Part shown: in pieces, positions 1,377 to 19,499 of the stretch
Position numbering within the stretch: the first letter of the stretch is position 1
Layout of the letters: every line of letters begins with the position of its first letter
Assembly (NCBI RefSeq): GCF_002356355.1
Contig: NZ_AP018052.1
Location: 1,550,001 to 1,614,000, forward strand
Direction of reading: 5' to 3'
Length of the DNA: 64,000 nt
Source: Thiohalobacter thiocyanaticus
GTDB lineage: Bacteria > Pseudomonadota > Gammaproteobacteria > Thiohalobacterales > Thiohalobacteraceae
Position numbers and translations under genes: made by a program
Notes under the pieces: generated by a model
Seen by the model: only the letters and a program-made list of their open reading frames with translations
Told to the model about the DNA's origin: nothing
The model's database searches: none

Positions 1377-2750
1377 GTGAGCGTGGCCAGCCTCGATCCC
1401 AACCGCAACCCCCTGTGGCAGCAGCGCCTGGGGCGCTACAGCGAGCGCCTGGGCGAGGGCGTGCCGCTGGTGGTCGAGGGCCGGCTGACGCGCATGGTCG
1501 GCCTGACCCTGGAGGCGGTCGGCTGCCAGACCGCCATCGGCGGGCGCTGCCTCATCGTCAATCCGGACGGCAGCGAGATCGAGGCCGAGGTGGTGGGCTT
1601 CGGCGGCGAGAAGCTCTATCTCATGCCCATCGGCGATCTGCAGGGGCTGGCGCCCAACGCCCGGGTGATTCCGACCAACCGGGCCTGTGAGGCGCCGGTG
1701 GGGCCGCATCTGCTCGGGCGGGTGCTAGACGGCGCCGGCCGGCCGCTGGACGGGCGCGGTCCCTTGCAGGTCGAGGAGCGCATGCCCATCACCGGCCGCT
1801 TGATCAACCCGCTGGCGCGTGCGCCCATCCGCGAGCCGCTGGATGTGGGCGTGCGCTCCATCAACTCGCTGCTTACCGTCGGCCGCGGCCAGCGCATGGG
1901 CCTGTTCGCCGGCTCCGGCGTGGGCAAGAGTGTGCTGCTGAGCATGATGACGCGCTATACCAACGCCGATGTCATTGTGGTGGGTCTGATCGGCGAGCGT
2001 GGCCGCGAAGTGGTGGAATTCGTGCAGAACAACCTGGGCGAGGAGGGCCTGGCCCGCTCGGTGGTGGTCGCCACGCCGGCCGACACCTCGCCGCTGATGC
2101 GCATGCACGGCGCCATGCTCGCCACCAGCATCGCCGAATATTACCGCGACCAGGGCATGCAGGTGCTGCTGCTGATGGATTCGCTCACCCGTTTCGCCCA
2201 GGCCCAGCGCGAGATTGCCCTGGCCATCGGCGAGCCGCCGGCGACCAAGGGGTATCCGCCTTCGGTGTTCGCCAAGCTGCCGCAGCTGGTCGAGCGCGCC
2301 GGCAACGGCAAGCCCGGCGGCGGTTCCATAACAGCGTTTTACACTGTTCTGGCCGAGGGCGATGACCAGAACGACCCCATCGCCGATGCCGCCCGTGCCA
2401 TCCTCGACGGCCACATCGTGCTGTCACGCGAGCTGGGCGAATCCGGGCATTATCCGGCCATCGACATCGAGGCTTCCATCAGCCGCGCCATGACCGAGAT
2501 CACCGACGACACCCACATGCAGACCGCGCGCCGCTTCAAGCAGATATACTCGACCTATCAGCGCAACCGGGATCTGATCAATGTCGGGGCTTACCAGAAG
2601 GGATCGGATCCGCGGGTGGACGAGGCCATCCACTACCATCCGCGGCTGATGCAGTTCCTGCGTCAGGGCATGCACGAGCGGGTCTCGCTGGTGGAAAGCC
2701 TGGACGACCTGGATCAGCTGCTGGGCAATGCCCTGGCCACGACCCAGTAG
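1377..2750 (+). CDS. fliI: FliI, flagellum-specific ATP synthase-like ATPase
   Basis: FliI is the cytoplasmic hexameric ATPase that helps unfold and deliver export substrates to the flagellar type III gate, together with FliH and FliJ. The 457-residue protein carries Walker A GSGVGKS near residue 180, the conserved [13 protein letters not shown] stretch after it, the Walker B region [17 protein letters not shown] near residue 265, and the ATPase C-terminal domain. It is related to the F1 beta subunit. It starts with GTG one base after the fliH stop. Length and motif order are those of canonical FliI. Confidence 0.97.
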
Positions 2751-2803
2751 TCGTTGGGGACGATGTGTTACGCTACCGCTTCACCCAGTCTGCGTGTTAT
2801 GCC

Positions 2804-2819
2804 TGGCACACTGGTTGTA
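2804..2819 (+). promoter_or_regulatory. Possible sigma-54 promoter upstream of fliJ
   Basis: TGGCAC (2804-2809), five bases, then TTGTA (2815-2819). This is one base off the -24/-12 consensus TGGCAC-N5-TTGCA. The -12 element overlaps the left arm of repeat R1, so the match could be chance. Confidence 0.3.
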
Positions 2820-2898
2820 GGATGGGTGGAGGCGCGAGCGCCGTATCCCATCGCCTGGTCCCGCCACGATGGGTTGCGCTGTGCTTCACCCATCCTAC
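2817..2898. repeat. Dispersed hairpin repeat, family R1
   Basis: Second copy of the GTAGGATGGGTG / CACCCATCCTAC repeat, placed between fliI and fliJ. It again separates two genes of the same flagellar operon. Confidence 0.85.
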
Positions 2899-2926
2899 GC
2901 GCTCAACAAAAAACGAATAAGATTCA

Positions 2927-3382
2927 ATGACCCGCTCCAAACGCATCCAACCGGTCGTCGATGTCGCCGAACGCCGGGAACAGGAACAGGCCCGGCGCCT
3001 CGGGGCGGCCCAGCGCGAACTGGAACAGCAGCGTCAGCAACTCGATCAGCTGATCCTGTATCGCGATGAATATGCCCGCCAGTTCGAGCACAGCGGCAAC
3101 ACCGGTCTGTCCGTTGCCCGGCTGCAGGACTATCGCGTCTTTCTCTCCCGCCTCAATCTGGCCATCGATCAACAGCGTGAGCGCATCGCCCGGAGCCAAC
3201 AGGCCTGCGAGGAACAGCGCCGGCACTGGCTGGCCTCGCGCACCCGGGCCCAGGCCCTGGACAAGGTGGCCGACCGCTACCGCGAAGAAGAACACCAGGC
3301 CCGCGAACGCCGGGCCCAGTCCGAAAGCGACGAGTTTGCCCTGCAGCGCCATCAGCGCAACAAGGACCGGGATCGGTCCTGA
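2927..3382 (+). CDS. fliJ: FliJ, flagellar export chaperone/ATPase stalk
   Basis: FliJ is a small antiparallel coiled-coil protein that sits in the FliI ring like the gamma subunit of F1 and links it to FlhA. The 151 residues are rich in Glu, Gln and Arg with heptad-like runs throughout (EQARRLGAAQRELEQQRQQL, then IARSQQACEEQRRHWL), and there is no membrane segment. Length (about 150) and position after fliI fit. Sequence conservation in this family is low, so the call rests on coiled-coil character and synteny. Confidence 0.88.
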   Translation: MTRSKRIQPVVDVAERREQEQARRLGAAQRELEQQRQQLDQLILYRDEYARQFEHSGNTGLSVARLQDYRVFLSRLNLAIDQQRERIARSQQACEEQRRHWLASRTRAQALDKVADRYREEEHQARERRAQSESDEFALQRHQRNKDRDRS

Positions 3383-3589: not shown

Positions 3590-4816
3590 ATGGCCGAACT
3601 GCCGGTAACACCCGTCAAGGTTCAGTCCGCCCCCGCCAGGGCCTCCGGCCAGGGCCCGGCGAGGCAGTCGGAAGCCTCTGATTCCGATAATAAATCCACC
3701 AGTTTTTCCAGCGAACTGAACAAGCGCATGGATGCCGGCAAGGCCGAGCGCGACACCGGGGCAAACAACAGCGGCAAGGCCGCAGCGGCAGGGCGGGGGG
3801 AAAGCTCCGACCCCGCCGAGGGCAAGAACTTGCCGGTCGGGGACCGGGCCGGCCAGGCCGGCACCGACGATGCCGAGTCCGGCGATGCGCAGAGGCAGGC
3901 CGGACTGGCCGGCGGCCTGCTGGCCGACGGCGAAGGCCGGACGGCTGCAACCGAAACCGGTGAAGAAACCGAGGTTTCACCGCTGGCCCTGGCCCAGATG
4001 CTGCTTGATGCGGCGCCCGCCAGGGGGGCTGAAGCGGCCGCCACCCGACCGGGCAGGGGCGAGGCCGGCGCTCGCCTGCTCACTCAGCCGGGCGCTCAAC
4101 CGCAGCTTGCCCAGGGTGCGCAGGACGCCCTGCAGGAGGCCGAATTGTCGACTGATCTGTTCCGCCAGTTCCTGGCCCGCGGCGGTGAGCAGCGGTCGGA
4201 GACGGCCGCGGCCCAGCTGGCTCAACTCGCCGCACGCAACCCGGACGCGTCCGGCCTGCAGCGGCTGGCGTCGGCCGAGGTCATGCCCAATCTCACCCCC
4301 TCCGCCCAGGGCATGGTGCAGACCGCCCAGCTGAACCCGACCGCCAGCCAGCCGGCCCTGCCCGGCACCCAGATCCCGCTGCCCATGCAGCATTCGCAGT
4401 GGGGCGATGCCCTGAGCGAGAAGGTGATGTGGGTGGCCAACCAGAAGCTGCAGGGGGCGGAGATCAAGCTCAACCCGCAGCACCTGGGCCCGATCGAGGT
4501 GCGAGTCTCGTTGAACAGTGATTCGGGCCAGTCGCAGGCCCAGGTGCACTTCACCGCCCAGCACGCAATGACGCGCGAGGCACTGGAAGCCGCCATGCCG
4601 CGGCTGCGTGAGATGTTCACTGCCAACGGCATGGATCTGGTCGACGTGAATGTCTCCGACCGTTCCTTCGCCGAACAGGATCAGGCGTCGGCCCAGGCGC
4701 AGCAGCAGCAGTTCATGGCCGGCATGGGCGAGGCGGATGAGGGCGGTCAGAATCCGTCAGGAATGTCGGCAAAAATTACACAATTACCCACTGGAACGCT
4801 GGATCTGTTCGCCTGA
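3590..4816 (+). CDS. fliK: FliK, flagellar hook-length control protein
   Basis: FliK is exported and measures hook length; its C-terminal domain then switches FlhB specificity from hook to filament proteins. The 408 residues show a long low-complexity Ala/Gly/Glu/Gln N-terminal region and a conserved C-terminal domain from about residue 285 to 365, with LNPQHLGPIEVRVSL near residue 294 and LREMFTANGMDLVDVNVSD after it. It follows fliJ and has its own sigma-54 promoter. A second FliK-like gene lies at 34704-36053, so two such proteins exist here. This one is in the canonical operon position and is the likely main hook ruler. Confidence 0.93.
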   Translation: MAELPVTPVKVQSAPARASGQGPARQSEASDSDNKSTSFSSELNKRMDAGKAERDTGANNSGKAAAAGRGESSDPAEGKNLPVGDRAGQAGTDDAESGDAQRQAGLAGGLLADGEGRTAATETGEETEVSPLALAQMLLDAAPARGAEAAATRPGRGEAGARLLTQPGAQPQLAQGAQDALQEAELSTDLFRQFLARGGEQRSETAAAQLAQLAARNPDASGLQRLASAEVMPNLTPSAQGMVQTAQLNPTASQPALPGTQIPLPMQHSQWGDALSEKVMWVANQKLQGAEIKLNPQHLGPIEVRVSLNSDSGQSQAQVHFTAQHAMTREALEAAMPRLREMFTANGMDLVDVNVSDRSFAEQDQASAQAQQQQFMAGMGEADEGGQNPSGMSAKITQLPTGTLDLFA

Positions 4817-4927
4817 CTTCCGGTTGCAGAATGCAATCGGGCGACGGTCAATGCAGAGTGTGCAGGATGGAATAAATGTGATAACTTAAACGTATATCCA
4901 TAATAACAACAACCCGAAGACCAGAAG

Positions 4928-7189
4928 ATGGCCGGAAGCAAAAAGCAGCGGAACAAGACTGCGAATACGCATTCCACCCCGAACGCGCAAGCCGGTTCAC
5001 GGGAACGCGAACTTCGCAAGGACTTCCACTATGTGCTGCAGATGGACAGTGCAGAGTCGGAAGTGCTCCTCCGTTATCAGACCCTGCTCAGCCAGGGCGC
5101 GGCGCAGTTCGCCGAGTCCTACTACAACTATCTGTTCGACAACCCCAGCATCGCCGAGATCCTCTATGCCTTCGAGAACGACGGCGGCGATGTCGGCGAC
5201 CTGGTGCGCAGCCAACTCAACCAGCTGCTGCGCATCATCGGGCCGCTGGAAGACGGCGACCTGATCCGCATCGGCCACCTGCATCAGCAGCGCGGCGTCA
5301 AGCCGGTCTGGCTGATCGGCGCCTACCGGCTGTATCTCAATCATCTGCTCCAACTGATCGCGCACATGCCCGGGCTGGAGCCCGATGAGCGCAATGTCCT
5401 GGAGAGCGCGCTGGTCAAGCGCGTTTTTCTGTTCATGGGCCTGATGATCGAAGGTCATCTGGATCGCCTGCAGCAGACCCGGGAGGCCGAGCGCACGCAG
5501 CAGGACGGCGAGCTCGAACGCATGCAGCAGCTGCTGGCCAACATTCCGCAACAGGTCTGGTCCTATGATGTCACCGCGGCCCAGCTGCACTACCTCAACC
5601 CTGCCGCCAGGGCCCTGTGCAACGGCAACGGCAAGGGCGAGGGGCCGATCCCCTGCCTGATGGCCGTGCACGAGGATGATCGCAGCAAGGCTGAGGCCGC
5701 CTGGCAGCAGGCCCTGGACGGCCGCCCGGCCGAGGTCGAGGTGCGGCTGCAGGGGCGGGGGCAGTCTGAGAGCTGGCGCCGGTTGTCCCTGTATCCCTTC
5801 AAGCAGCGGCGGCGGGTGGTGCGCATCGACGCCATGCTGGAGGATATCAACCGCCAGCATGAGACGCTGGAACGGTTGGAGCACCTGGCCACCACCGACG
5901 AACTGACCGAACTCGCCAACCGCACCCTGTGGCAGGACCGGGTCAACCAGGCCCTGGCCCAGGCCCGGCGCGAGGAGCATCAGGCCGTGGTGCTGATGCT
6001 GCTGGACCTGGATCATTTCAAGACCCTGAACGACACCCTGGGCCACCAGGCCGGGGACGAACTGCTGCGCCAGGTGGCCGAGCGTGTATGCGGCGTACTG
6101 CGTGATTCCGATACCCTGGCCCGGCTGGGCGGGGACGAGTTCGGCGTGCTGATGCCGGCAGTGGAGGATCCGGTCCGCGCCGGCGAACAGGTCGCCGGCA
6201 AGATCCTGGAGTGCTTCAAACGCCCCTATCACTACAATGATCAGCCGCTGTATTTCACCACCTCCATCGGCATAGCCCATGCGCCCCGCCACGGCGGTGA
6301 CTTCGACACCCTGCTCAGCCGGGCCGACATCGCCATGTACGAGGCCAAGCGCAATGAACTGGGGTTTGCCTTCTTCGAGCCCGGCGCGGCCGCTGCCTCC
6401 AGCGCGCACCTGCAGTTCTCCACCCAGCTGCGTCACGCCCTGGAGCGCAACGAGTTCGAACTGCATTATCAGCCCAAGGTGGACATCGCCTCACATGAAC
6501 TGTGCGGCGCCGAGGCGCTGCTGCGCTGGAAGCACCCGGAGCAGGGGCTGGTGCCGCCGGGCGGCTTCCTGGACATGGCCGAGCAGATCGGCCTGATGGT
6601 ACCCATCACCAACTGGGTGCTGGTCACCGCCCTGCGCCAGTGCAAGGCCTGGCAGCAGGCCGGCGTCACCATCCCGGTCTCGGTCAATCTCTCCACCCGC
6701 ACCTTCCAGACCCCGCGACTGCTGGAGCGCATCGAGTGGGCGCTGCAGGAGGCCGGTGTGTCCGGCGACTGCCTGGAAGTGGAGGTCACCGAACAGACCC
6801 TGATGAAGGATCTGGACCACGGCGCCGAACTGCTGCGCAGGCTGCACGATCTCGGCGTGCGCGTGGCCATCGACGACTTCGGCACCGGTTATTCCTCCGT
6901 CTCGCGGCTGCGCCATCTGCCGCTCGACACCCTCAAGATCGACCGCTCCTTCCTCTCCGAACAGGCCGCCCGCGAGGACGACCCCGTCATCGTGCGCTCC
7001 ATCATCGACCTCGGCCACAACCTGGGCCTGCAGGTGCTGGGCGAAGGCGTGGAGAACGACACCGCCTGGAACCTGCTCGAATCCCTCGGCTGCGATGCCG
7101 TGCAGGGCTATCACGTCAGCCAGCCGCTGTCCGATCAGGGCTTCTCCAGCTGGATTCAGGATGGTGGCTGGTCCAACCGTATTCAGTAA
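4928..7189 (+). CDS. Globin-coupled GGDEF-EAL cyclic-di-GMP protein
   Basis: This predicted cytoplasmic protein of 753 residues makes and/or degrades cyclic di-GMP. In order: a globin-like sensor (about 30-185), a short PAS-like region (about 195-305), GGDEF and EAL. In the globin part, HLHQQRG near residue 117-123 aligns with the region of the proximal heme His in DosC-type sensors (candidate His119). The GGDEF motif is intact (RLGGDEFGVL near residue 398), and the product-inhibition motif RDSD sits five residues before it. The EAL half keeps EALLRW (about 528), EVTE, DDFGTGYSS, the LKIDRSF lysine and GEGVEN. Both activities therefore look possible. Next to the flagellar operon, a role in oxygen- or redox-linked motility control is likely but inferred. 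Confidence 0.88.
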   Translation: MAGSKKQRNKTANTHSTPNAQAGSRERELRKDFHYVLQMDSAESEVLLRYQTLLSQGAAQFAESYYNYLFDNPSIAEILYAFENDGGDVGDLVRSQLNQLLRIIGPLEDGDLIRIGHLHQQRGVKPVWLIGAYRLYLNHLLQLIAHMPGLEPDERNVLESALVKRVFLFMGLMIEGHLDRLQQTREAERTQQDGELERMQQLLANIPQQVWSYDVTAAQLHYLNPAARALCNGNGKGEGPIPCLMAVHEDDRSKAEAAWQQALDGRPAEVEVRLQGRGQSESWRRLSLYPFKQRRRVVRIDAMLEDINRQHETLERLEHLATTDELTELANRTLWQDRVNQALAQARREEHQAVVLMLLDLDHFKTLNDTLGHQAGDELLRQVAERVCGVLRDSDTLARLGGDEFGVLMPAVEDPVRAGEQVAGKILECFKRPYHYNDQPLYFTTSIGIAHAPRHGGDFDTLLSRADIAMYEAKRNELGFAFFEPGAAAASSAHLQFSTQLRHALERNEFELHYQPKVDIASHELCGAEALLRWKHPEQGLVPPGGFLDMAEQIGLMVPITNWVLVTALRQCKAWQQAGVTIPVSVNLSTRTFQTPRLLERIEWALQEAGVSGDCLEVEVTEQTLMKDLDHGAELLRRLHDLGVRVAIDDFGTGYSSVSRLRHLPLDTLKIDRSFLSEQAAREDDPVIVRSIIDLGHNLGLQVLGEGVENDTAWNLLESLGCDAVQGYHVSQPLSDQGFSSWIQDGGWSNRIQ

Positions 7190-7282
7190 TACCTCCAATG
7201 AATTTCAGGGCGTGTATCTGCCCACCAATACTGCGAAGTGGTTGTTAAGAAATTTGAAAGTGCGTTATCGGCACATAGCTGA

Positions 7283-7508
7283 CTTACGTACCAGTCCAAA
7301 TGGGATTTTACCTACCATCAATATGTCGCTGAATTAGCCGGTTGGAAGGTAGATTTAGCAGCTTATTACTATTCTGGCTACGCAAGCCAATCAAGGAAAT
7401 ACTGTTGATTCATATATGTTTTTGGGTAAATATAACCAACATAATGCGCCACGATATGCGGAATCGGAAGTATTGCATGATAGGCCGAATCCGCACTATT
7501 GCGAATGA
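7283..7508 (+). pseudogene. Remnant of an unknown coding sequence with one frameshift
   Basis: One frame reads sensible protein from 7283 to about 7393 (SKWDFTYHQYVAELAGWKVD, then LAAYYYSGYASQS). The frame one base earlier continues from 7392 to the stop at 7506-7508 (QGNTVDSYMFLGKYNQHNAP, then RYAESEVLHD). Together they give about 75 residues of aromatic-rich, non-random sequence without a start. I do not recognise the family. It is probably the 3' end of a decayed gene, either a former cassette or a gene cut by the island boundary. The remaining bases 7190-7282 hold nothing I can identify. Confidence 0.45.
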
Positions 7509-7530
7509 TACGAATTCCGCCTAATACACC

Positions 7531-7537
7531 GTTATGC
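7531..7537 (+). other. attC core site (R', GTTATGC), left edge of cassette A
   Basis: GTTATGC; recombination would fall between G and TT. It is complementary to GCATAAC at 8351-8357, the R'' of the same cassette. Only a short stretch of the preceding attC or attI is recognisable. Confidence 0.65.
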
Positions 7538-7566
7538 CAGAGTGGCTTCAGAAGAGACGAGACAAC

Positions 7567-8211
7567 ATGACACTTACAGTTGAAGCATTGAATATTCTAT
7601 TGCTTCTATTGCCGGGATTCCTATCCGGTCAAATATTCTATTCGTGCTTTAGATTTGGAGAAATATCAATATCGCGTAGGATACTAGATGCAATTCTTTT
7701 TACCTTTGTTATCTACCTCGTTGTTTCAACATTTACCGTTTGGGAGCCACTCGCACAAGTTGCATCTACGGAAAGTGGCTTGTCCTTTGATTTCTCTGCT
7801 AGCAAAACCCTAATTTGGTTGTCTTTATCAACTGTAGGGCTTATACCTACGGTCGTCGGATTCATATATTTTAATGACCATGTTCATAAAGTGCTTCGTA
7901 AACTAAAGATCACTACAAAAACGTCTCGTGCCAACACCTGGAATGATACCTTCCAAACACAAGACCGCTACGTGATAGTTACTCTCAAGGATGGGAGGAG
8001 AATCAGAGGTTACCCAACGATGTTTTCTACGGACCCAGAAGAAGGCTTCGTATACCTTTACAACCCTGCTTGGGTGAATGACAACAAATCCGATATAGAA
8101 GAACCCGACTATATCGAGTCGAATTGCCACGGGTTCCTGGTAAATAGAGATAACCTTGATTTGCTTGAATTCACATTGGACCCCGGAGAGACACTTACCG
8201 CCAAGGCGTAG
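7567..8211 (+). CDS. DUF6338 family membrane protein (cassette A)
   Basis: A 214-residue protein of unknown function. The N-terminus is hydrophobic (LNILLLLLPGFLSGQIFYS, residues about 8-26), followed by two more likely membrane segments (about 40-60 and 85-105). The C-terminal soluble part has YVIVTLKDGRRIRGYP and a charged tail. This layout, with LLLLPGFL near the start and a late VTLKDGR-type strand, matches DUF6338 as I know it. I chose ATG 7567 because the earlier in-frame ATG at 7534 lies inside the attC core. Codon use is AT-rich, unlike the flagellar genes. DUF6338 genes occur in variable regions, so a role in defence or stress is possible but unproven. Confidence 0.65.
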   Translation: MTLTVEALNILLLLLPGFLSGQIFYSCFRFGEISISRRILDAILFTFVIYLVVSTFTVWEPLAQVASTESGLSFDFSASKTLIWLSLSTVGLIPTVVGFIYFNDHVHKVLRKLKITTKTSRANTWNDTFQTQDRYVIVTLKDGRRIRGYPTMFSTDPEEGFVYLYNPAWVNDNKSDIEEPDYIESNCHGFLVNRDNLDLLEFTLDPGETLTAKA

Positions 8212-8216
8212 GAGGG
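8210..8216 (+). promoter_or_regulatory. Strong ribosome binding site of the 42-residue ORF
   Basis: AGGAGGG, four bases before ATG 8221, partly overlapping the stop of the upstream gene. It is the best Shine-Dalgarno in the island and argues that the tiny ORF is translated. Confidence 0.65.
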
Positions 8217-8220
8217 ATAT

Positions 8221-8349
8221 ATGAAAGACCCTAAACTAGAAAAACCAGCTGATCCAAGAGATAACGTCAAAAGCGAAGTTAAACCGATACGGTACGAGAA
8301 ACCGAATGAGCGGCCAAAGCCAACACCTAATCCTCCGAAGAAGAAATAA
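8221..8349 (+). CDS. 42-residue Lys/Pro-rich microprotein (cassette A)
   Basis: A short ORF nine bases after the DUF6338 gene, preceded by AGGAGGG. The product is very polar and basic (MKDPKLEKPADPRDNVKSEV at its start, PTPNPPKKK at its end), with no hydrophobic segment and probably disordered. It ends two bases before the R'' site, the typical gene-to-attC spacing, so it lies wholly inside the cassette with DUF6338. No family is recognised. It may be a partner or regulator of the membrane protein; this is inference from coupling only. Confidence 0.55.
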   Translation: MKDPKLEKPADPRDNVKSEVKPIRYEKPNERPKPTPNPPKKK

Positions 8350-8350
8350 G

Positions 8351-8394
8351 GCATAACGAGGCGCGCAACCCGGACGGCTTCGCCGCCGGTTCTG
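8351..8394 (+). other. attC of cassette A, 5' half (3' half lost)
   Basis: R'' is GCATAAC (8351-8357). A hairpin AACCCGGACGGC / GCCGCCGGTT follows, whose two strands match only if extra bases stay unpaired, as in attC sites. The L'/R' side is replaced by the palindromic element that begins at 8395. Confidence 0.65.
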
Positions 8395-8516
8395 GGAATC
8401 CGGGGACAGTATATCTATTTATAGGAATCCGGGGAAAGTATATCTATTTATAGCCATAGGCCATCCCTGGCGCATCATGAGAGTGATATGAATTGAGTAT
8501 ACTGTCCCCGGAATCC
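8395..8516. repeat. Palindromic element R7 copy 1, inserted in attC
   Basis: Left end GGAATCCGGGGACAGTATA and right end TATACTGTCCCCGGAATCC are inverted repeats with two mismatches. The left end is present twice (8395 and 8424). The core (GCCATAGGCCATCC ... GCGCATCATGAGAG) is shared with copy 2 at 10064. Ends with GGGGACAGTATA are, to my knowledge, found near REP-associated tyrosine transposases; no transposase is present here. Confidence 0.75.
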
Positions 8517-8595
8517 ATAACGAGCGGGTCAAAATCGCTCTCTTCGGTCGCTGGGACCTCGCTACTCGCTCGACCCCTTACCCAAAACGTTGGGC
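8517..8595 (+). other. Second attC-like site, ending in GTTGGGC
   Basis: ATAACGAGCGGG at the left resembles an R'' side whose first base was lost to element R7, and GTTGGGC (8589-8595) is a consensus R' (GTTRRRY). Internal GGGTC / GACCC can pair. It may be all that is left of a deleted cassette between A and B. Confidence 0.55.
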
Positions 8596-8625
8596 GCAGT
8601 TGAAACAATCTGTGAGAATTGAACG

Positions 8626-10053
8626 ATGAGACTTGAAGACTTAGGTATAACAATTAAGGATCTCGACTTCGGGGGCGTTGACGCTGAATCGGATCGCCGG
8701 TTAGCAGACTATTTCATTGATACGCCACAAGTAGACGAGGCACTGAGTTTTCGCAGCGCTCACTTCATCGGGCGAAAGGGGTCGGGAAAATCGTCAATAT
8801 TTACACAGCTTCCAAGATTGGCAGTAGAACGGTATGGGCCCGGTTGTCGGGTGAGCTTGATGACCCCCGATCAGTACGCTTGGGGCGCTCTACGTCAATA
8901 TGAAGAGAGAGGTCTGCTGCCTGAACAGGCGCACTCAAACGCTTGGAAATTTACCATTGCTGTAGATGCCGCAGCCGCGGCGCTAGAAACGCCTGTCGAC
9001 TTGCATGATGAAAATGCGCGTAAGGCTCTTGAGCAGATTCGCACCTTTGTGGCCAAAAACTTTGGAGATGACGCGCCGACGCCGACGACTACGGCACAGC
9101 GTTTGCTGAAAGGGTTGGAGGCATTCAATCTTGAGGCTTTCGGATTTGGAGTCGGCTTTGAACGATCAAAGCAGGAGATGCCCCTGACACCACAGGTTAT
9201 TGACTTGCTTCTTAATGCGGTAGAGAAAGTTTGTGGCCGGGTGGGCGTACTTGTTGCAGCAGATAGATTGGATGACTCATGGGATGGCTCCGATGTATCA
9301 CAGAGCCTTCTCATTGGATTGATGAAGGCCACAAAAGAAATCAACGACCGATTTTCTCATCGCGATGGAACGGGGCTTCACGTCGTTACTTTCCTTAGAT
9401 CAGATATCTATCAAGGGCTCCGATTTGACGACAAAGACAAACATCGAGCAGTAGAAGAGGAAATCAGTTGGAATGTTGATCTGCTTAGAGATCTAGTCAA
9501 CGCGCGATTGCCTGATGGTTTAACGGTCGATGATATATTTGAAGAGGGCGATATGCGCGGAAGTATCGCGCCATTCAACTACTTGGTGAAGCGAACTTTT
9601 CTTCGGCCTAGAGAAATAATTCAATTCTTGCAGTTGTGCCAAAAGCGCACGCCCGCAGGGGAAACTGAGATCGCAAAAGATACTATCCGCGACGCGGAAG
9701 AACTATATAGTGCTTGGAAGGTGGATGATTTGAAACAAGAATATCGCCGCGTTTTCTCCGATTTTGATGATTTGCTTGAAGCTCTTAGGCAAACTCAGCA
9801 TCGCTTCGACTCAATTGAAGAATTTTCCGCTGCGTTGAAAGAGAAGGCGCCACGATTGGTTGAATCGCATGGCGATAGAGAATTAGTGCAAAGATTATTT
9901 GATGCGTCAATCATTGGTGTTCGTATGCGTAATGCAGGTGTTGCGCGCTTCCGCTGTGAAGACCCTGATCTTCTGCTTCCCTCCACGGGCTCGGTATACA
10001 TTCATCAGTCTCTGTACAAAGGATTGAACATCAGCGAAAAGCGGGCCTCATAG
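8626..10053 (+). CDS. P-loop ATPase, Sll1717-like family (cassette B)
   Basis: A 475-residue soluble protein. Walker A GRKGSGKSS is at residues 49-57, and a Walker B-like strand VGVLVAADRLDD has Asp at about 213 and 216-217. The N-terminal DYFIDTPQVDEALS, followed by the P-loop about 20 residues later, is typical of the P-loop ATPases annotated as the Sll1717 family, whose function is not known. The rest is helical and charged with no membrane segment. The gene starts 36 bases after the attC core (TTGGGC) and is AT-rich. In such islands these ATPases often accompany defence genes, but no nuclease or other effector domain is visible in this protein. No partner gene lies in the same cassette. 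Confidence 0.65.
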   Translation: MRLEDLGITIKDLDFGGVDAESDRRLADYFIDTPQVDEALSFRSAHFIGRKGSGKSSIFTQLPRLAVERYGPGCRVSLMTPDQYAWGALRQYEERGLLPEQAHSNAWKFTIAVDAAAAALETPVDLHDENARKALEQIRTFVAKNFGDDAPTPTTTAQRLLKGLEAFNLEAFGFGVGFERSKQEMPLTPQVIDLLLNAVEKVCGRVGVLVAADRLDDSWDGSDVSQSLLIGLMKATKEINDRFSHRDGTGLHVVTFLRSDIYQGLRFDDKDKHRAVEEEISWNVDLLRDLVNARLPDGLTVDDIFEEGDMRGSIAPFNYLVKRTFLRPREIIQFLQLCQKRTPAGETEIAKDTIRDAEELYSAWKVDDLKQEYRRVFSDFDDLLEALRQTQHRFDSIEEFSAALKEKAPRLVESHGDRELVQRLFDASIIGVRMRNAGVARFRCEDPDLLLPSTGSVYIHQSLYKGLNISEKRAS

Positions 10054-10063
10054 GAGTCCAGAT

Positions 10064-10155
10064 GAGTCCAGGGACAGTATACCTATTTATAGCCATAGGC
10101 CATCCCTAGCGCATCATGAGAGTGATATGAATTGAGTATACTGTCCCCGGAATCC
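10064..10155. repeat. Palindromic element R7 copy 2
   Basis: The same core and right end (TATACTGTCCCCGGAATCC) as copy 1, in the same orientation. It has a single, more diverged left end (AGTCCAGGGACAGTATA). It starts about ten bases after the ATPase stop, exactly where R'' of cassette B (expected GCCCAAC) should be. Confidence 0.75.
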
Positions 10156-10178
10156 CACACTTAGCTCAGCCGTTATAC
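10156..10178 (+). other. 3' remnant of cassette B attC with core GTTATAC
   Basis: About 16 bases of attC arm followed by GTTATAC (10172-10178). The core is exactly complementary to GTATAAC at 12021, so it marks the start of cassette C. The R''/L'' half of this site is missing and is occupied by element R7. Confidence 0.65.
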
Positions 10179-10196
10179 AAAAGAAGACAAGGAGCT

Positions 10197-12017
10197 ATGA
10201 GAATAAAGTCAATCCATGCGCAAAACACTCAGCCCGTCGAGTTATTCGCCGTCAATGATTTGTCTGATCTTGTCGTAATCGCCGGCCCAAACGGCATTGG
10301 TAAGACGAGATTAATTTCCGCATTTATTGCTTTTTTTCAAAACCCCAATGCAGGACAAATAAAATTTGAAATTCAATCTACATCAAAAGCTGAAGAAGAG
10401 GCATGGGGTAAGCGCTCTTTAAATACAGAAAATGCGCAAGATTCAAATTTACTTCGAACAACGCTGCAACAAAATCGTAGGCGTCGAAATTTTAGCGGAA
10501 GCGTTCTATATTACGAAAGTAACAGAACCATACAGAATATTAAGCCATTGTCCTTTCAGTGGGAAATGGCCGACCCCTGGGAAGAACAAGTATCGTGGAA
10601 TTTCGGATTCGGTGGCTTAGCAGGAAGGTTTCAAGACACGCTGCACGCAATCTTCAAAAAGATACAAAACCAAAAAACTTCAATCGCAAATCGAGCCATT
10701 AGCCTGAGGCAACAGGGGCATGATTCGATGAATCTGGAATTCTCAGATCCGTTAGAGCCGTTTAGAGATGCGTTTTCAAAGCTCTTGGGGCCGAAGGAAC
10801 TAGTCAGGGCAGATCTACAAGCCAACACCCTTAGATTTAGACACAACGATGTCGAGTATGGCATTAACGCATTGTCGTCCGGTGAGCGTGAAGTTTTGAA
10901 TATCGCTTTTGACTTTCTTCTCAGAAGACCGTCAGATTGCATAATATTTTTTGATGAACCTGAGCTTCATCTACATCCCGAGCTATCAACGAAGCTAATA
11001 AGCACGTTGAAAAGCATAGGGGAGAATAATCAGTTTATATTGTGTTCTCATTCTCCAGATATTATCTCATCATCTTTAGATGATACGGTCATATTTTTAA
11101 CACCTAAAAAGGAAGGTCAAGAGAACCAAGCCGTGTTATTAAAGGCGGATGATGAATCAACTGAAGCATTGAACCGACTTGGTCATTCTATCGGCGTTGT
11201 TTCATTAGGTAAGAAAATCGTTTTGATTGAGGGGACAGACGGTAGCTTAGATAAGCAAGCGTATTCCCACATTTTAAAAAATCGCTTTCCGAATCTTGTC
11301 TTACTGCCTAGTGGCGGGAAGGGTAATCTCAGCGCGTTCGACAAAGTGGCGGATTCTGTACTAAATAAGACACTTTGGGGGATCGACTTTTATATGCTGG
11401 CTGACCGTGACAGCATTGTTAACAGTGACGAGTTCGAAGAGAGAGCGCCAGGCAGGTTTAGAACGCTTTCGAAATATCATCTCGAAAACTACTTTCTCGA
11501 CTCGGATGTGCTGGCTGCTGTATTCACCAAGATGGAACCGTCAAATTCTTGGTTATGCGATCCTGTTGCAATAGAGTCAAGGCTCACTGAAATAGCTTTA
11601 AATCATCTCCCGTATGCAGCCACCCTGATTGTCGCAAACGAAAGAAGAAGGATGGCTGGGAATGTCGATATCATGGTCAAAGGTTGCCAAGGAAAGAGCA
11701 AAGATGACTTAATTCAATTTATCCGCGATAAAAGTAATGTAGAAACCATCCGAATCAATGAAGCTCTAAACGGAGATTCACTCGCAGATCACTTGTCCGA
11801 AGTGTTTGATCAGCTAGAAAAGTCAGTTAATGATGGCTCTCAAGCATGGAAGTCAGATATCCCAGGAAAAGCCATCTTTAAAACATTTTGCAGCCAAGCA
11901 AGCATGCCGTCTGGGCGGCTGAAAACTCTTTACATTCAACAAACGGAGGAAATGGATAACAACCCATTTGAAGAACTCGTTGATTTATTTAAGGGGTTTG
12001 CAGAACATGAAGCCTAA
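10197..12017 (+). CDS. AAA/ABC-type ATPase fused to TOPRIM (DUF4435-like) domain; candidate merged PARIS protein
   Basis: A 606-residue soluble protein. The ATPase half has Walker A GPNGIGKT (residues 30-37), an ABC-type signature ALSSGEREVLNIAF (about 223-236), Walker B CIIFFDEPELHLHPE (about 247-261) and a switch His in LCSHSPDIISS (about 283). The second half opens with IVLIEGTDG (acidic residue Glu345), continues to LLPSGGKGN, and has an Asp pair in LADRDS (Asp403, Asp405). Glu plus DxD is the TOPRIM metal site. ATPase plus TOPRIM occurs in OLD nucleases, Gabija GajA and PARIS, where AriA and AriB (DUF4435) can be fused. No helicase gene follows, which argues against Gabija. The anti-phage role is inferred. 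It starts 25 bases after the attC core. Confidence 0.72.
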   Translation: MRIKSIHAQNTQPVELFAVNDLSDLVVIAGPNGIGKTRLISAFIAFFQNPNAGQIKFEIQSTSKAEEEAWGKRSLNTENAQDSNLLRTTLQQNRRRRNFSGSVLYYESNRTIQNIKPLSFQWEMADPWEEQVSWNFGFGGLAGRFQDTLHAIFKKIQNQKTSIANRAISLRQQGHDSMNLEFSDPLEPFRDAFSKLLGPKELVRADLQANTLRFRHNDVEYGINALSSGEREVLNIAFDFLLRRPSDCIIFFDEPELHLHPELSTKLISTLKSIGENNQFILCSHSPDIISSSLDDTVIFLTPKKEGQENQAVLLKADDESTEALNRLGHSIGVVSLGKKIVLIEGTDGSLDKQAYSHILKNRFPNLVLLPSGGKGNLSAFDKVADSVLNKTLWGIDFYMLADRDSIVNSDEFEERAPGRFRTLSKYHLENYFLDSDVLAAVFTKMEPSNSWLCDPVAIESRLTEIALNHLPYAATLIVANERRRMAGNVDIMVKGCQGKSKDDLIQFIRDKSNVETIRINEALNGDSLADHLSEVFDQLEKSVNDGSQAWKSDIPGKAIFKTFCSQASMPSGRLKTLYIQQTEEMDNNPFEELVDLFKGFAEHEA

Positions 12018-12020
12018 TGT

Positions 12021-12101
12021 GTATAACAAGCCCGTAAACTCGGACGTATTTTTCGCTCGCTACGCTCACTGCAAATACGCCGGTTACGGCTGGCGTTAAT
12101 G
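12021..12101 (+). other. Complete attC site of cassette C
   Basis: R'' is GTATAAC (12021-12027) and R' is GTTAATG (12095-12101). Inner arms pair CCGTAA (12032) with TTACGG (12084), CGG with CCG, and CGTATTT (12045) with AAATACG (12073). An A at 12044 and a few others are left unpaired on one strand, the hallmark of an attC hairpin. The loop is about 21 bases. Confidence 0.78.
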
Positions 12102-12315
12102 TTCGCACCAGGTCGGTGGCTGAACTCTCGTTGGTACTATCTTTCACGCTTGAACTCAATTATACTCCCGGCACGTAGCGCCATCCGGTCGGCGCATAGC
12201 TTCGCGGCCGTCTCCCTCCCCGAAAGACTTATCCTCGAACATTCAACCCAATCATGACTCCACCCTGACCGGCCCCGCGGAACCTGCGGGTAGGCTGGAC
12301 CTGGAGCAGATAAAT
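12102..12315. other. Gap after the cassette array, leader of rhlE
   Basis: No gene seen. A -10-like TATACT lies at 12161-12166 without a convincing -35. The start of rhlE is supported by GGAG about nine bases before ATG 12316. Base composition returns from AT-rich to GC-rich in this stretch. Confidence 0.4.
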
Positions 12316-13629
12316 ATGTCATTTGAGACCCTCGGCCTCATGGCCGAACTCCTGCGTGCCATCGATTCGCAGGGCTATACCACCCCGACCCCCATCCAGC
12401 GCCAGGCGGTGCCGGTGATATTGGAAGGCCGCGATGTGCTGGCCGGCGCCCAGACCGGCACCGGCAAGACCGCTGCCTTCACGCTGCCCATGCTGCAGCT
12501 GCTCAGCCAGCGGCCGCGCAAGGGCAGGGCGCCGCGCGCCCTGGTGCTCACTCCCACCCGGGAGCTGGCGGCGCAGGTCGGTGAGAGCGTGGAAACCTAC
12601 GGTGCACACCTGAAGCTGCGCTCCGCCATCATCTTCGGCGGGGTGGGGATCAATCCGCAGATCGAGGCCCTGAAGCGCGGCGTCGACATCCTGGTCGCCA
12701 CGCCGGGCCGGTTGCTGGATCATGCCGGCCAGGGCACGGTGGATCTGTCCGCGATTGAGATCCTGGTGCTGGACGAGGCCGACCGCATGCTGGACATGGG
12801 CTTCATCCACGACATCCGCCGGGTGATGAAGCTGCTGCCGAACAAGCGTCAGAACCTGCTGTTCTCTGCCACCTACTCCAACGAGATCAAGCGTCTGGCC
12901 GACGGCCTGCTGCACCGGCCGGCCCTGATCGAGGTGGCGCGGCGCAATACGGCCGCCGAGACCGTCACCCAGCATGTGTATCGGGTCGACAAGGACGCCA
13001 AGCGCGATCTGCTGATCCACCTCATCGATGCCGGGCAGTGGTCCCAGGTGCTGGTGTTCACCCGTACCAAGCACGGCGCCAACCGTCTGGCCGAGCAACT
13101 CAATCGGGCCGACATCGAAGCGGCCGCCATCCATGGCAACAAGAGCCAGAGTGCCCGCACCCGGGCCCTGGCCGGGTTCAAGGACGGCAGCGTGCGGGTG
13201 CTGGTGGCGACCGACATCGCCGCCCGCGGCCTGGACATCGACCGCCTGCCGCATGTGGTGAATTACGAACTGCCCAATGTGCCGGAAGACTATGTGCACC
13301 GTATCGGCCGTACCGGTCGGGCCGGTGAGGAGGGCGCGGCGATTTCACTGGTCGGCGCCGATGAAGCCAAGCTGCTCAAGGATATCGAGCGGGTTCTGAA
13401 CAAGACCATCCCGGTGCTGCCCATGCCGACGTTCGAGCCGAAGGTGCTGAAAGCGGCCCCCCGACCGGAGCAGAGGTCCAGGGCCACTCCCGGCAATAAG
13501 TCGAAGGTGAAGAAGAAGCCGGCCATCAGCCGTAACGCCGGGTCCCGTGCCGGTGACAAGCCGGCGGACGGCCAGCGCAAGCGGCGCCGGCGCAATCGCC
13601 CGTCCCAGTCCCCCGGCGCTGCCCGGTAA
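12316..13629 (+). CDS. rhlE: DEAD-box RNA helicase, RhlE type
   Basis: An ATP-dependent RNA helicase acting in ribosome assembly and RNA turnover. The 437 residues show all DEAD-box motifs in order: Q motif [10 protein letters not shown], motif [55 protein letters not shown] and [11 protein letters not shown] basic, Pro/Lys/Arg-rich tail of about 70 residues follows, as in RhlE proteins of gammaproteobacteria. The N-terminal FETLGL and length fit RhlE better than CsdA or SrmB. It is a backbone gene directly downstream of the cassette island. Confidence 0.9.
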
Positions 13630-15782: not shown

Positions 15783-16790
15783 GTGAACGATCTGCTCTCA
15801 CAGGAAGAAATCGACGCGCTCCTGCACGGGGTCGGCAGCGGTGATATCGAGACCGAATCCGACGACGGCGGCGGTGACGGCGAGGCACAGAACTACGACT
15901 TCACCAGCCAGGACCGCATTGTCCGCGGGCGCATGCCCACGCTGGAGATGATCAACGAGCGCTTCGCCCGTTATTTCCGCATTTCGCTGTTCAACATGCT
16001 GCGCCGCCAGGGCGAGATCTCGGTCGGCGGCGTGCAGATGCTCAAGTTCGGCGAGTACATCCACAGCCTGTTCGTCCCGACCAGCCTGAACCTGGTCAAG
16101 ATCAATCCGCTGCGCGGCACCGCCCTGTTCGTGTTCGATCCCAAACTGGTGTTCAGCGCGGTGGACAACTACTTCGGCGGCGACGGGCGCTTCCACACCA
16201 AGATCGAGGGCCGCGAGTTCACGCCCACCGAGCAGCGCGTCATCCAGCGCATGCTGGACCGGGCCTTCGACGATCTGTTCCAGGCCTGGCGCCCGGTGCT
16301 GCCGGTCGAGTTCGAGTATCAGACCCACGAGGTCAATCCGCAGTTCGCCAACATCGTCAGTCCCACCGAGGTGGTGGTGGTCTCCACCTTCCACATCGAA
16401 CTGGAAGGCGGCGGCGGCGCGCTGCATATCACCCTGCCGTATTCCATGGTCGAGCCCATTCGCGATCTGCTGGATGCCGGCGTGCAGAGCGATCGCAGCG
16501 ACGTGGACGAGCGCTGGCGCATCGCCATCAAGGAAGAGATGAAGGATGCCGAGGTCGAGCTGTCCTCGCAGCTGGCCGAGACCACCATCACCTTCCGCGA
16601 GCTGATGGAAATGCAGATTGGGGACGTGATTCCCATCGACATGCCGGAGACCATTCTGCTGCGTTCGCAGGACATCCCGCTGTTCCGCGGCCGGCTGGGC
16701 AGCGCCAATGGCAACAAGGCAGTCAAGATCATCGACAAGGTGAACCAGAACGCGATGGTTCCCCTATCCAATGTAATTGAAAAGAACTGA
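15783..16790 (+). CDS. fliM: FliM, flagellar motor switch protein
   Basis: FliM is the C-ring protein that binds phosphorylated CheY and passes the switch signal to FliG. The 335 residues start with the CheY-binding peptide LLSQEEIDALLHG, an acidic linker follows, then the middle domain from about residue 40 and the C-terminal SpoA domain with the GDVIPIDMPETILL strand. The start is GTG 15783. Length is canonical. Confidence 0.97.
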   Translation: MNDLLSQEEIDALLHGVGSGDIETESDDGGGDGEAQNYDFTSQDRIVRGRMPTLEMINERFARYFRISLFNMLRRQGEISVGGVQMLKFGEYIHSLFVPTSLNLVKINPLRGTALFVFDPKLVFSAVDNYFGGDGRFHTKIEGREFTPTEQRVIQRMLDRAFDDLFQAWRPVLPVEFEYQTHEVNPQFANIVSPTEVVVVSTFHIELEGGGGALHITLPYSMVEPIRDLLDAGVQSDRSDVDERWRIAIKEEMKDAEVELSSQLAETTITFRELMEMQIGDVIPIDMPETILLRSQDIPLFRGRLGSANGNKAVKIIDKVNQNAMVPLSNVIEKN

Positions 16791-16810
16791 GTGCGTGACG
16801 GGAGACAGTA

Positions 16811-17245
16811 ATGAGTGACGATCAGGAAAACCTGGACCAGGATGCGATGGCCGACGAGTGGGCCGCCGCCCTGGCCGAACAGGACGACACCGGCGGCGGT
16901 GACGGCCAGGCCGAAGTTGCGGCTCAGGTGTCCAAGCCGGAACTCGATCAGTTCGAGAGCGCCACGGTGCCGGCCGGCAGCGATGAAGCCAATCTCGATC
17001 TGATCCTGGACATCCCGGTCACCATCGCGATGGAAATCGGCCGCACCCGGATCAGTATCCGCAACCTGCTGCAGCTCAACCAGGGGTCGGTGGTGGAACT
17101 GGACCGGCTGGCGGGGGAGCCGATGGACGTGCTGGTCAACGGCACCCTGGTGGCGCACGGCGAGGTGGTGGTGGTCAACGAGAAGTTCGGTATCCGCCTG
17201 ACCGACGTGGTCAGTCCGGCGGAACGGGTGAAGAAGCTGAAATGA
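16811..17245 (+). CDS. fliN: FliN, flagellar motor switch protein
   Basis: FliN forms the lower C ring with FliM and docks FliH-FliI at the export gate. The 144 residues have an acidic variable N-terminus (about 1-60) and a C-terminal SpoA domain (about 62-140) with [20 protein letters not shown] and [20 protein letters not shown]. The last four bases overlap the start of fliO. Confidence 0.96.
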
Positions 17246-17682
17246 TGTCGTTTCCCGCACGCATCACGGTGACGCTGGCGCTGCTGTGGCCGCTGACGCT
17301 GCAGGCATCCGAGGGCCGGCAGGCCGCCGAGTCCCTGAACGATCCCATGGCCTGGTCCAACCTGCTGCAGGTCCTGCTGGGCCTGGTGGCGGTGATCGTC
17401 CTCATGTTGATCTTTGCCTGGCTGATGCGGCGCATGTCCGGTTTCCAGGGCGGCGTGCCCGGGGCCATGCGCGTGCTCGGCGGCCTGTCCATGGGCGCGC
17501 GCGAGAAGGTGGTGCTGATCCAGGTCGGCGAGACCCAGCTGGTGCTGGGCGTGGCGCCGGGTCGGGTCCAGACCCTGCATGTGCTGGAGGAGAAGATCGA
17601 GACCCCGGTGCGCGAGGGCGCCGGCATGAACAGCTTCGCCCGCAATCTGCAGCAGGCACTGAGCCGGGGAGACAGGTCATGA
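17242..17682 (+). CDS. fliO: FliO, flagellar export-gate assembly protein
   Basis: FliO helps assemble the FliP ring of the export gate. The 146 residues have a signal-like N-terminus, one membrane segment (about 37-57, with [20 protein letters not shown]), and a small cytoplasmic domain with [27 protein letters not shown] split by short turns. ATG 17242 overlaps the fliN stop. The family is weakly conserved, but the operon position is decisive. Confidence 0.92.
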
Positions 17683-18425
17683 GACTGCGCGGCCTGATCA
17701 GCCTGCTGCTGCTGTTGCTGCCGGTGGCCTCGCTGGCCGAACCGGGCATTGCGGCCTTCCGCATGGAGAACAATCCGGACGGCAGCGAGACCTATTCCAT
17801 CAGTATCCAGGTGCTCGCCATCATGACGGCGATCACCTTCCTGCCGGCGGCGCTGATGATGATGACCTCCTTCACCCGCATCCTGATCGTGCTGTCCATC
17901 CTGCGCCAGGCGCTGGGCACCATGCAGACGCCTTCGACCCAGATCCTGATCGGTCTGTCGCTGTTCCTGACCTTCTTCATCATGGTGCCGGTGTTCGACG
18001 AGGTCTACACCGAGGCGGTCAAGCCCTATCTCAACGAGGAACTGGCGCCGGACGAGGCGCTGGCACGCGCCGCCGAGCCGTTCCATGCCTTCATGCTGGC
18101 GCAGACGCGCGAATCCGATCTGGAGACCTTCTCCGACATTGCCCGGGCCGAGCCGGTCGAACGCGCCGAGGACATTCCCTTCTCGCTGCTGCTGCCCTCG
18201 TTCGTCACCAGCGAACTGAAGACGGCCTTCCAGATCGGGTTTCTGATCATGATCCCGTTCCTGGTCATCGATCTGGTCATCGCCAGCCTGCTGATGTCCA
18301 TGGGCATGATGATGCTCTCGCCCATGATCATATCGCTGCCGTTCAAGATCATGCTGTTCGTGCTGGTCGATGGCTGGTCGCTGATCATGGGCACGCTCGC
18401 CTCCAGTTTCTACATTGCGAGTTAG
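17679..18425 (+). CDS. fliP: FliP, flagellar type III export-gate protein
   Basis: FliP forms the pentameric core of the export channel with FliQ and FliR. The 248-residue protein has a cleavable signal peptide ([20 protein letters not shown]), a periplasmic loop and four membrane segments, with the conserved [20 protein letters not shown] and [16 protein letters not shown]. The start ATG 17679 overlaps the fliO stop (ATGA); the frame is open further upstream, but the signal peptide begins here. Confidence 0.96.
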
Positions 18426-18434
18426 GAGCCACGC

Positions 18435-18704
18435 ATGACACCCGATACCGTCATCACCATCGGCGAGCAGGCCATGTACATCACCGTGCTGCTGGCCGGG
18501 CCGCTGCTGATCGCCTCGCTGGCGGTGGGCCTGGTCATCGCCATGTTCCAGGCCGCGACCCAGATCAACGAGATGACGCTCACCTTCATCCCCAAGCTGG
18601 CCGCGATCGTGCTGGTGCTGCTGCTGGCCGGGCCCTGGCTGCTGCGCAGCCTGCTCGATTTCACCATCAACCTGTATACCAGCATCCCCGGCCTGATCGG
18701 CTGA
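18435..18704 (+). CDS. fliQ: FliQ, flagellar type III export-gate protein
   Basis: An 89-residue inner-membrane protein with two hydrophobic hairpin helices (about 15-40 and 52-76) and the conserved ATQINEMTLTFIPKL between them. Four copies pack around FliP5-FliR1 in the export gate. It lies nine bases after fliP and nine before fliR. Confidence 0.96.
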   Translation: MTPDTVITIGEQAMYITVLLAGPLLIASLAVGLVIAMFQAATQINEMTLTFIPKLAAIVLVLLLAGPWLLRSLLDFTINLYTSIPGLIG

Positions 18705-18713
18705 GGCGCAACC

Positions 18714-19499
18714 ATGGCTACGCCGCTGCTCCTCACCACCAGTCAGATTGCCGGATGGGTCGGCGAGTTCATGTGGCCCTTCATGCGCATCGGCATGATG
18801 CTGATGGTGATGCCGGTGTTCGGCGGTCGGCTGGTGCCGGAGCGGGTGCGGATCCTGACTGCCGTGGTGATCGCCGCTATCCTGGTGCCGGTGATCCCGC
18901 CGGTGCCGGCGGTGGACCCGCTCAGCGCCGAGTCGGTGGCGATCTCGGCCCAGCAGCTGGCCATCGGCATGGTGATGGGATTCATGCTGCAGCTGGTCTT
19001 CGGGGCCCTGGTCATCGGCGGCCACGCCATCGCCATGAGCATGGGCCTGGGCTTCGCCTCCATGGTCGACCCCCAGAATGGCGTGAATGTACCGGTGATC
19101 GGCCAGTACTACGTCACCCTGGCCACGCTGCTGTTCCTGGTGCTGGACGGGCACCTGATCCTGATCAGCGTACTGGCCGAGAGTTTCCACCAGTTGCCCA
19201 TCGCCGCCCACGGTCTGACGCGCGACACCTTCCTGACCCTGGCCCACTGGGGCACACAGATGTTCGCCGGCGGGGTGTTGATTGCAGTGCCGGCGTTGAT
19301 TGCGCTGATGCTGACCAACATCGCCTTCGGTGTGGTCTCGCGCGCCGCGCCGCAGCTCAATATCTTCGGCGTGGGCTTCCCGGTAACGCTGACCTTCGGC
19401 TTCGTGGTCATCTACCTGACCCTGTCCAACCTGGTGCCGCAGTTCCAGGTGCTGCTGCATGACGCCTTCACCCTGCTGGGCAGTCTGGGGGCGGACTGA
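18714..19499 (+). CDS. fliR: FliR, flagellar type III export-gate protein
   Basis: FliR is the single-copy subunit that closes the FliP5 ring. The 261 residues hold six membrane segments, with FMRIGMMLMVMPVFGGRLVP near residue 22-41, MGLGFASMVDPQNG near 105-118, and APQLNIFGVGFPVTL near 212-226. Its stop overlaps the flhB start (TGATG). Confidence 0.96.
   Translation: MATPLLLTTSQIAGWVGEFMWPFMRIGMMLMVMPVFGGRLVPERVRILTAVVIAAILVPVIPPVPAVDPLSAESVAISAQQLAIGMVMGFMLQLVFGALVIGGHAIAMSMGLGFASMVDPQNGVNVPVIGQYYVTLATLLFLVLDGHLILISVLAESFHQLPIAAHGLTRDTFLTLAHWGTQMFAGGVLIAVPALIALMLTNIAFGVVSRAAPQLNIFGVGFPVTLTFGFVVIYLTLSNLVPQFQVLLHDAFTLLGSLGAD

Follow-up and report, generated by a model that had tools for sequence, protein, structure and literature searches.

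Which kind of system is encoded by a single gene that joins an ABC-type ATPase to a TOPRIM domain, and why does it sit in what appears to be an array of integron cassettes? Both questions are raised by a gene in Thiohalobacter thiocyanaticus, located at 10197–12017 (+ strand) of a 64,000-nucleotide stretch of contig NZ_AP018052.1 (positions 1,550,001 to 1,614,000), referred to here as the window. A preliminary description made from the sequence had proposed that the gene encodes a merged PARIS anti-phage protein moving as an integron cassette. PARIS is usually described as a two-gene system in which AriB leaves AriA in order to act. Judged from its sequence, predicted structure and surroundings, the gene is probably a compact single-gene PARIS-type anti-phage module, with AriA and AriB fused, that is carried as a gene cassette.

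Domain organization and catalytic motifs

The gene encodes a fused AriA-AriB (PARIS-like) protein of 606 aa in a frame without internal stops. It has its own Shine-Dalgarno-like sequence (AAGGAG, 10189–10194, + strand), and its start methionine is common to all full-length homologues. The ABC-type, AriA-like ATPase domain spans aa 1–305 (10197–11111, + strand), and the first half of the protein is recognized in Pfam as AAA_15 (PF13175; 2.1e-21, 77.5 bits, cut-off 32.1) and AAA_21 (PF13304; 4.2e-17, 63.6 bits, cut-off 27). The ABC motifs lie where they had been placed before: the Walker A motif GPNGIGKT at aa 30–37 (K36; 10284–10307), the signature LSSGE at aa 226–230 (10872–10886), and the Walker B/E motif CIIFFDEPE at aa 248–256 (D253 and E254; about 10938–10964), previously given as near residue 247, all on the + strand.

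The TOPRIM core occupies aa 338–407 (11208–11417, + strand), displaying a beta-alpha-beta pattern in the AlphaFold2 model together with matches to AriB and OLD TOPRIM domains. Its set of metal residues, as the preliminary description gave it, consists of E345 (11229), D403 (11403) and D405 (11409). In an alignment of 11 homologues, D403 and D405 are invariant, while E345, the serines and glycine of LSSGE, and the D253-E254 pair are nearly so. The remaining C-terminal part (aa 427–606; 11475–12014, + strand) is helical and carries the motif YHLENYFLD, which is almost fully conserved across the family and can be compared with YH[IL]ENYLL in fused AriAB and GHSIENYIF in AriB.

Profile evidence for the identity of the fusion

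No Pfam family reaches its cut-off in the second half of the protein, and the TOPRIM assignment consequently leans on PADLOC models and the predicted fold. A Pfam match to RRM_9 at residues 490–516 (0.001) was taken as chance, being below its cut-off and present in one homologue half only, and searching the PDB by sequence profile gave no useful match for the C-terminal half. The DUF4435 model (PF14491) has no Pfam match in the window protein and appears in one of the 11 homologue halves at 0.1; however, it is an unreliable delimiter of this group, because two high-scoring AriAB fusions from PADLOC fail it as well (L042, at 0.017 and below cut-off, with AriAB at 656 bits; L046, without a match, with AriAB at 348 bits).

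Among the PADLOC models, the top match of the whole protein is the fused AriAB PDLC02981 (210.4 bits, E 1.3e-62), with aa 155–592 aligned to positions 243–682 of the 694-position profile; the other AriAB model, PDLC02982, gives 63.2 bits, and the runner-up is PtuA with 110 bits. On the ATPase half alone, AriAB (112.4 bits) and PtuA (110.6 bits) are equal. The whole-protein ranking could therefore stem from the ATPase alone, for which reason the C-terminal half was scored separately. This half is matched by AriAB (1e-25) and by the single-gene AriB model PDLC02983 (8.4e-6), the latter over residues 34–262 of the half and nearly the whole model, and the corresponding halves of the homologues match AriAB in 11 of 11 cases and AriB in 8 of 11. 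The equality on the ATPase half would suit a Septu/PtuA-like ATPase joined to an unrelated nuclease half, but such a chimera is very improbable: the protein has no HNH (PtuB) half, no PtuB gene is found among its neighbours, and its C-terminal half matches AriB and TOPRIM.

A more serious competitor is a class 1 OLD-like nuclease, that is, a lone ATPase-TOPRIM protein degrading or nicking DNA without the trigger logic of PARIS, which would have the same domain order and single-gene layout as the window protein. The profiles argue against it, since no OLD or GajA (Gabija) model is among the PADLOC matches of the C-terminal half, which AriB and AriAB do match. The P2 Old protein, used as a control, scored 712 bits with Old and about 108 bits with GajA in PADLOC, and 1.2e-17 with the Pfam family OLD-like_TOPRIM (PF20469); in contrast, PF20469 is absent from the window protein and occurs in one of the 11 homologue halves, weakly (0.043). 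Moreover, the ENY motif common to the window protein and AriB is missing from P2 Old. We accordingly consider an OLD-like nuclease unlikely.

The fused-PARIS assignment nevertheless concerns a distant relative. Core fused AriABs score 656–676 bits on PDLC02981 and 348–582 bits on PDLC02982, compared to 210 bits for the window protein and 174–212 bits (AriAB) for the relatives tested, so the window family constitutes a divergent branch. A published rule for detecting fused PARIS sets profile thresholds of 80 and 20 (PMC9122126), which the 210 and 63 bits found here surpass, assuming that the AriAB models of PADLOC are those profiles. With fused AriAB as top PADLOC model, and with the C-terminal half assigned to AriAB and AriB in PADLOC and to AriB in the fold search described below, the merged PARIS identity advanced earlier is supported. 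The window protein is likely a divergent fused-PARIS homologue and an atypical member of that group, and not a protein of Gabija or of OLD class 1.

Predicted structure

AlphaFold2 models were built on 11 sequences, and the full model is of moderate quality (pLDDT 77, pTM 0.57). Because the VIA comparison of the full model spanned the ATPase half only, a second model was made for the C-terminal half (pLDDT 80). The nearest structures to the ATPase half in VIA are PtuA, SMC heads and AriA (8v46_B, Z 16.0); PtuA chains head the list for the full model, the other point that would speak for a Septu-like ATPase. The Foldseek ranking of the full model, led by retron Eco8, GajA and PtuA, was set aside, as it consisted mostly of long alignments with an rmsd of about 10–20.

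For the C-terminal half, Foldseek returned two PDB matches at E<0.001, both of them E. coli PARIS AriB chains (8ux9_A, 6.4e-5; 8v46_D, 3.2e-4). In VIA, AriB again came first (Z 9.7, 220 residues, rmsd 6.2), and the next match was the OLD TOPRIM domain (6nk8, Z 8.6, 166 residues), which gives the OLD-like alternative its structural footing. The Z scores of the two are a near tie, the TM is only 0.39, and AriB is favoured over OLD through coverage and profiles, not through Z alone. The model supports a TOPRIM fold for the C-terminal half. The refuting outcome named at the outset, a second half with a fold other than TOPRIM, thus did not occur.

Distribution and divergence of the family

The family was found at 11 loci among 84,980 species (GTDB), with identities of 38–74%, a count that is a lower bound since the search was pattern-based. 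The hosts include Alpha-, Beta- and Gammaproteobacteria, Desulfobacterales and one Parcubacteria MAG, and one further relative lies on a metagenomic IMG/VR contig (L018). Three loci (L005, L006 and L007) encode an identical protein sequence. No real orthologue was detected in 56 related genomes, nor, except for the window genome's own, in 398 genomes drawn from the phylum. Two loci (L001 and L009) diverge or stop early, and a third (L010) is split into two frames.

The family is rare, patchily distributed and compact. Complete members measure 586–620 aa with or without neighbouring attC-like sites, so their small size is a family-wide feature, not an adaptation to the cassette. The fused AriABs represented by PDLC02981 (Kovacikia WP_224346761.1 and Lichenicola WP_171837336.1) resemble the window protein in their single chain running from ATPase to TOPRIM and in their YH[IL]ENY motif, and fused AriAB is the top profile for all members of the window family tested. 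In contrast, the window protein is shorter (606 versus 698–720 aa), lacking in the alignment an insert of roughly 60 aa that follows Walker A in the 698- and 720-aa fusions, and its family scores far below the value of about 660 bits and clusters separately in the tree. This tree divides the window family from the two fusion types of PADLOC, with unsupported deep forks; P2 Old and the two-gene row form very long branches in it, and it therefore does not bear on origin. The placement of the two-gene row inside the window group was read as a long-branch effect.

The cassette array and its relation to the genome's integron

Over roughly 7.2–12.1 kb of the window, the GC content drops from about 66% to 42–50%. 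An attI-like site at 7455–7533 (+ strand) would mark the start of the array; about 79 nt of it align with the sequence close to intI in the genome's own integron (score 71, against at most 38 among 200 shuffles). The first cassette gene encodes a DUF6338 protein of 225 aa (7534–8211, + strand; PF19865, 6.3e-16), after which the ORF list contains a 42-aa ORF (8221–8349). An attC-like site (8515–8595, + strand; covariance model R1, 21.0 bits, E 0.0011 in 5.3 kb) lies between the first cassette or cassettes and the next, which carries a P-loop ATPase of the Sll1717 family (8626–10053, + strand, 475 aa; NF047389, 270 bits, cut-off 75). This neighbour has no PADLOC match and is possibly another defence gene.

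At the 3′ end of the fusion cassette, a further attC-like site (12021–12102, + strand; R1, 14.0 bits, E 0.047 in 5.3 kb) begins 4 nt past the stop codon. Its bottom strand forms one long imperfect hairpin that is no better than shuffles (z -1.05). The site at 8515–8595 would stand alone, whereas that at 12021–12102 would not and gains weight from its nearness to the stop codon. Both were scored with a covariance model trained on ten attC sites that belong to the genome's own integron, a weak model with 6 base pairs. A previous scan by regular expression was dropped owing to many false matches inside genes, and an Rfam search of 7000–12400 gave no matches.

Two copies of a 92-bp repeat, 95% identical and inverted at their ends (GGGGACAGTATA ... 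TATACTGTCCCC), are present at 8425–8516 and 10064–10155. They are the only full ones in the genome, both located at broken attC sites, and the repeat may target attC sites. The attC preceding the fusion gene retains a 3′ remnant (10157–10178, + strand, ending in GCCGTTATAC), and excision of the fusion cassette alone is doubtful because the repeat replaces the 5′ half of this site.

No integrase adjoins the window array. The genome's integron integrase gene, intI, lies at 2.686 Mb (IntI, 432 bits), about 1.1 Mb from it. The genome thus holds two attI-like sites about 1.1 Mb apart, one in the window and one at 2.686 Mb (L038), only the latter being beside intI. The window array resembles an integron whose integrase has been lost, or one seeded from the genome's other integron. 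At L038, two near-identical tandem copies of a transposase-like gene (about 16060–18750, minus strand) separate the intI-side attI from the first cassette of the genome's main integron.

A decayed array of this kind might carry the fusion gene as a silent passenger, with its frame intact but with little or no expression, which would be compatible with a PARIS identity. The distance of the nearest intI and the upstream attC broken by the repeat are consistent with silence, as is the usually poor expression of cassettes far from the array promoter (PMC12409362). Conversely, the gene retains an uninterrupted frame, its catalytic residues and an SD-like sequence of its own, and just two gene-bearing cassettes precede it; a silent gene is accordingly rather unlikely, though less so than the OLD-like alternative.

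The reading as a PARIS-type cassette draws further on the relative on L018 (47% identical), which sits alone between attC-like sites and thereby defines a cassette unit of one gene. A clear attC lies directly 3′ of it (E 0.0007 over 102 kb, hairpin z -4.5), and a weaker attC-like end, GTTAGGC, lies upstream. Apparently, members of the family have existed as one-gene cassettes in two settings or more. Together with the attI-like and attC-like sites of the window, this relative agrees with the cassette location put forward in the preliminary description; movement of the window cassette is inferred, and the window copy may no longer be excised alone. On the same contig, a second possible cassette ORF (2399–3196) is found beyond the relative's attC, and a gene on the opposite strand (4348–6045) resembles large serine recombinases; the contig may be a mobile element, not a phage.

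Proposed mechanism

In two-gene PARIS, Ocr and other anti-restriction proteins are detected by AriA, whereupon a dimer of AriB is set free and cleaves tRNA (PMC9122126, PMC12409363). By analogy, the fusion protein would share the function in phage defence, the trigger and the cleavage of tRNA, the last of which we consider slightly favoured. The ATPase heads would associate with ATP into a multimeric scaffold holding the TOPRIM half inactive, until the ATPase is bound by a phage protein, in the classical case a DNA mimic that counters restriction, such as T7 Ocr. Next, the TOPRIM halves would pair and, with two metal ions (E345, D403 and D405), cut the anticodon stem-loops of host tRNA, halting translation before phage release. 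Because the chain is fused, release would have to be a rearrangement inside the complex, not a free dissociation of AriB, and this step is the likeliest point of difference from the E. coli system. Tentatively, the family could represent a third, compact fused-PARIS lineage that spreads as integron cassettes and senses and cuts tRNA in one complex without a free AriB dimer. Elsewhere in the genome there is an HsdR-like gene, below its model's cut-off, which might belong to a restriction system that PARIS could guard.

Relation to known defence systems

Compared with the E. coli two-gene system (AriA 8ux9_B, AriB 8ux9_A), the ATPase half resembles AriA and the C-terminal half has AriB as its best match, but the window holds one gene instead of two, and identity in the structural alignments is about 11–23%. 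The OLD class 1 (P2 Old) and class 2 (GajA of Gabija) proteins have the ATPase and TOPRIM architecture of the window protein, yet their models fail to recognize its C-terminal half. Gabija had previously been discounted for want of its separate helicase, and indeed the ORFs at 7534–13629 encode the DUF6338 protein, the Sll1717-family ATPase, the fusion and a DEAD-box RNA helicase identified by sequence motifs (12316–13629), with no UvrD-type GajB.

Fused AriAB is already known (PMC9122126), and its relation to OLD class 1 has been called unresolved (PMC10568477). Likewise known are the defence cassettes of chromosomal and mobile integrons, which, like the window gene, are small self-contained defence genes in arrays (reviewed in PMC12409362). 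The literature searched contained no report of PARIS as an integron cassette, although primary integron-defence studies may already mention PARIS cassettes. The new elements are a compact branch that belongs to neither of the PADLOC fusion types and the occurrence of PARIS in cassette settings, the latter of which may have been noted already; the window gene is a new branch of a known PARIS kind, not a new kind of system. A compact fusion working alone would reveal whether the release of AriB is needed and would provide structural studies with a small target. Carried in a cassette, it would also lengthen the list of abortive systems that integrons store and deploy, including one that combines sensor and effector in one gene. 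A separate observation concerns a Paraburkholderia sabiae plasmid (L040, 1–4248), where an AAA ATPase and DUF4435 gene pair is directly followed by a fused AriAB, placing two PARIS-like systems side by side.
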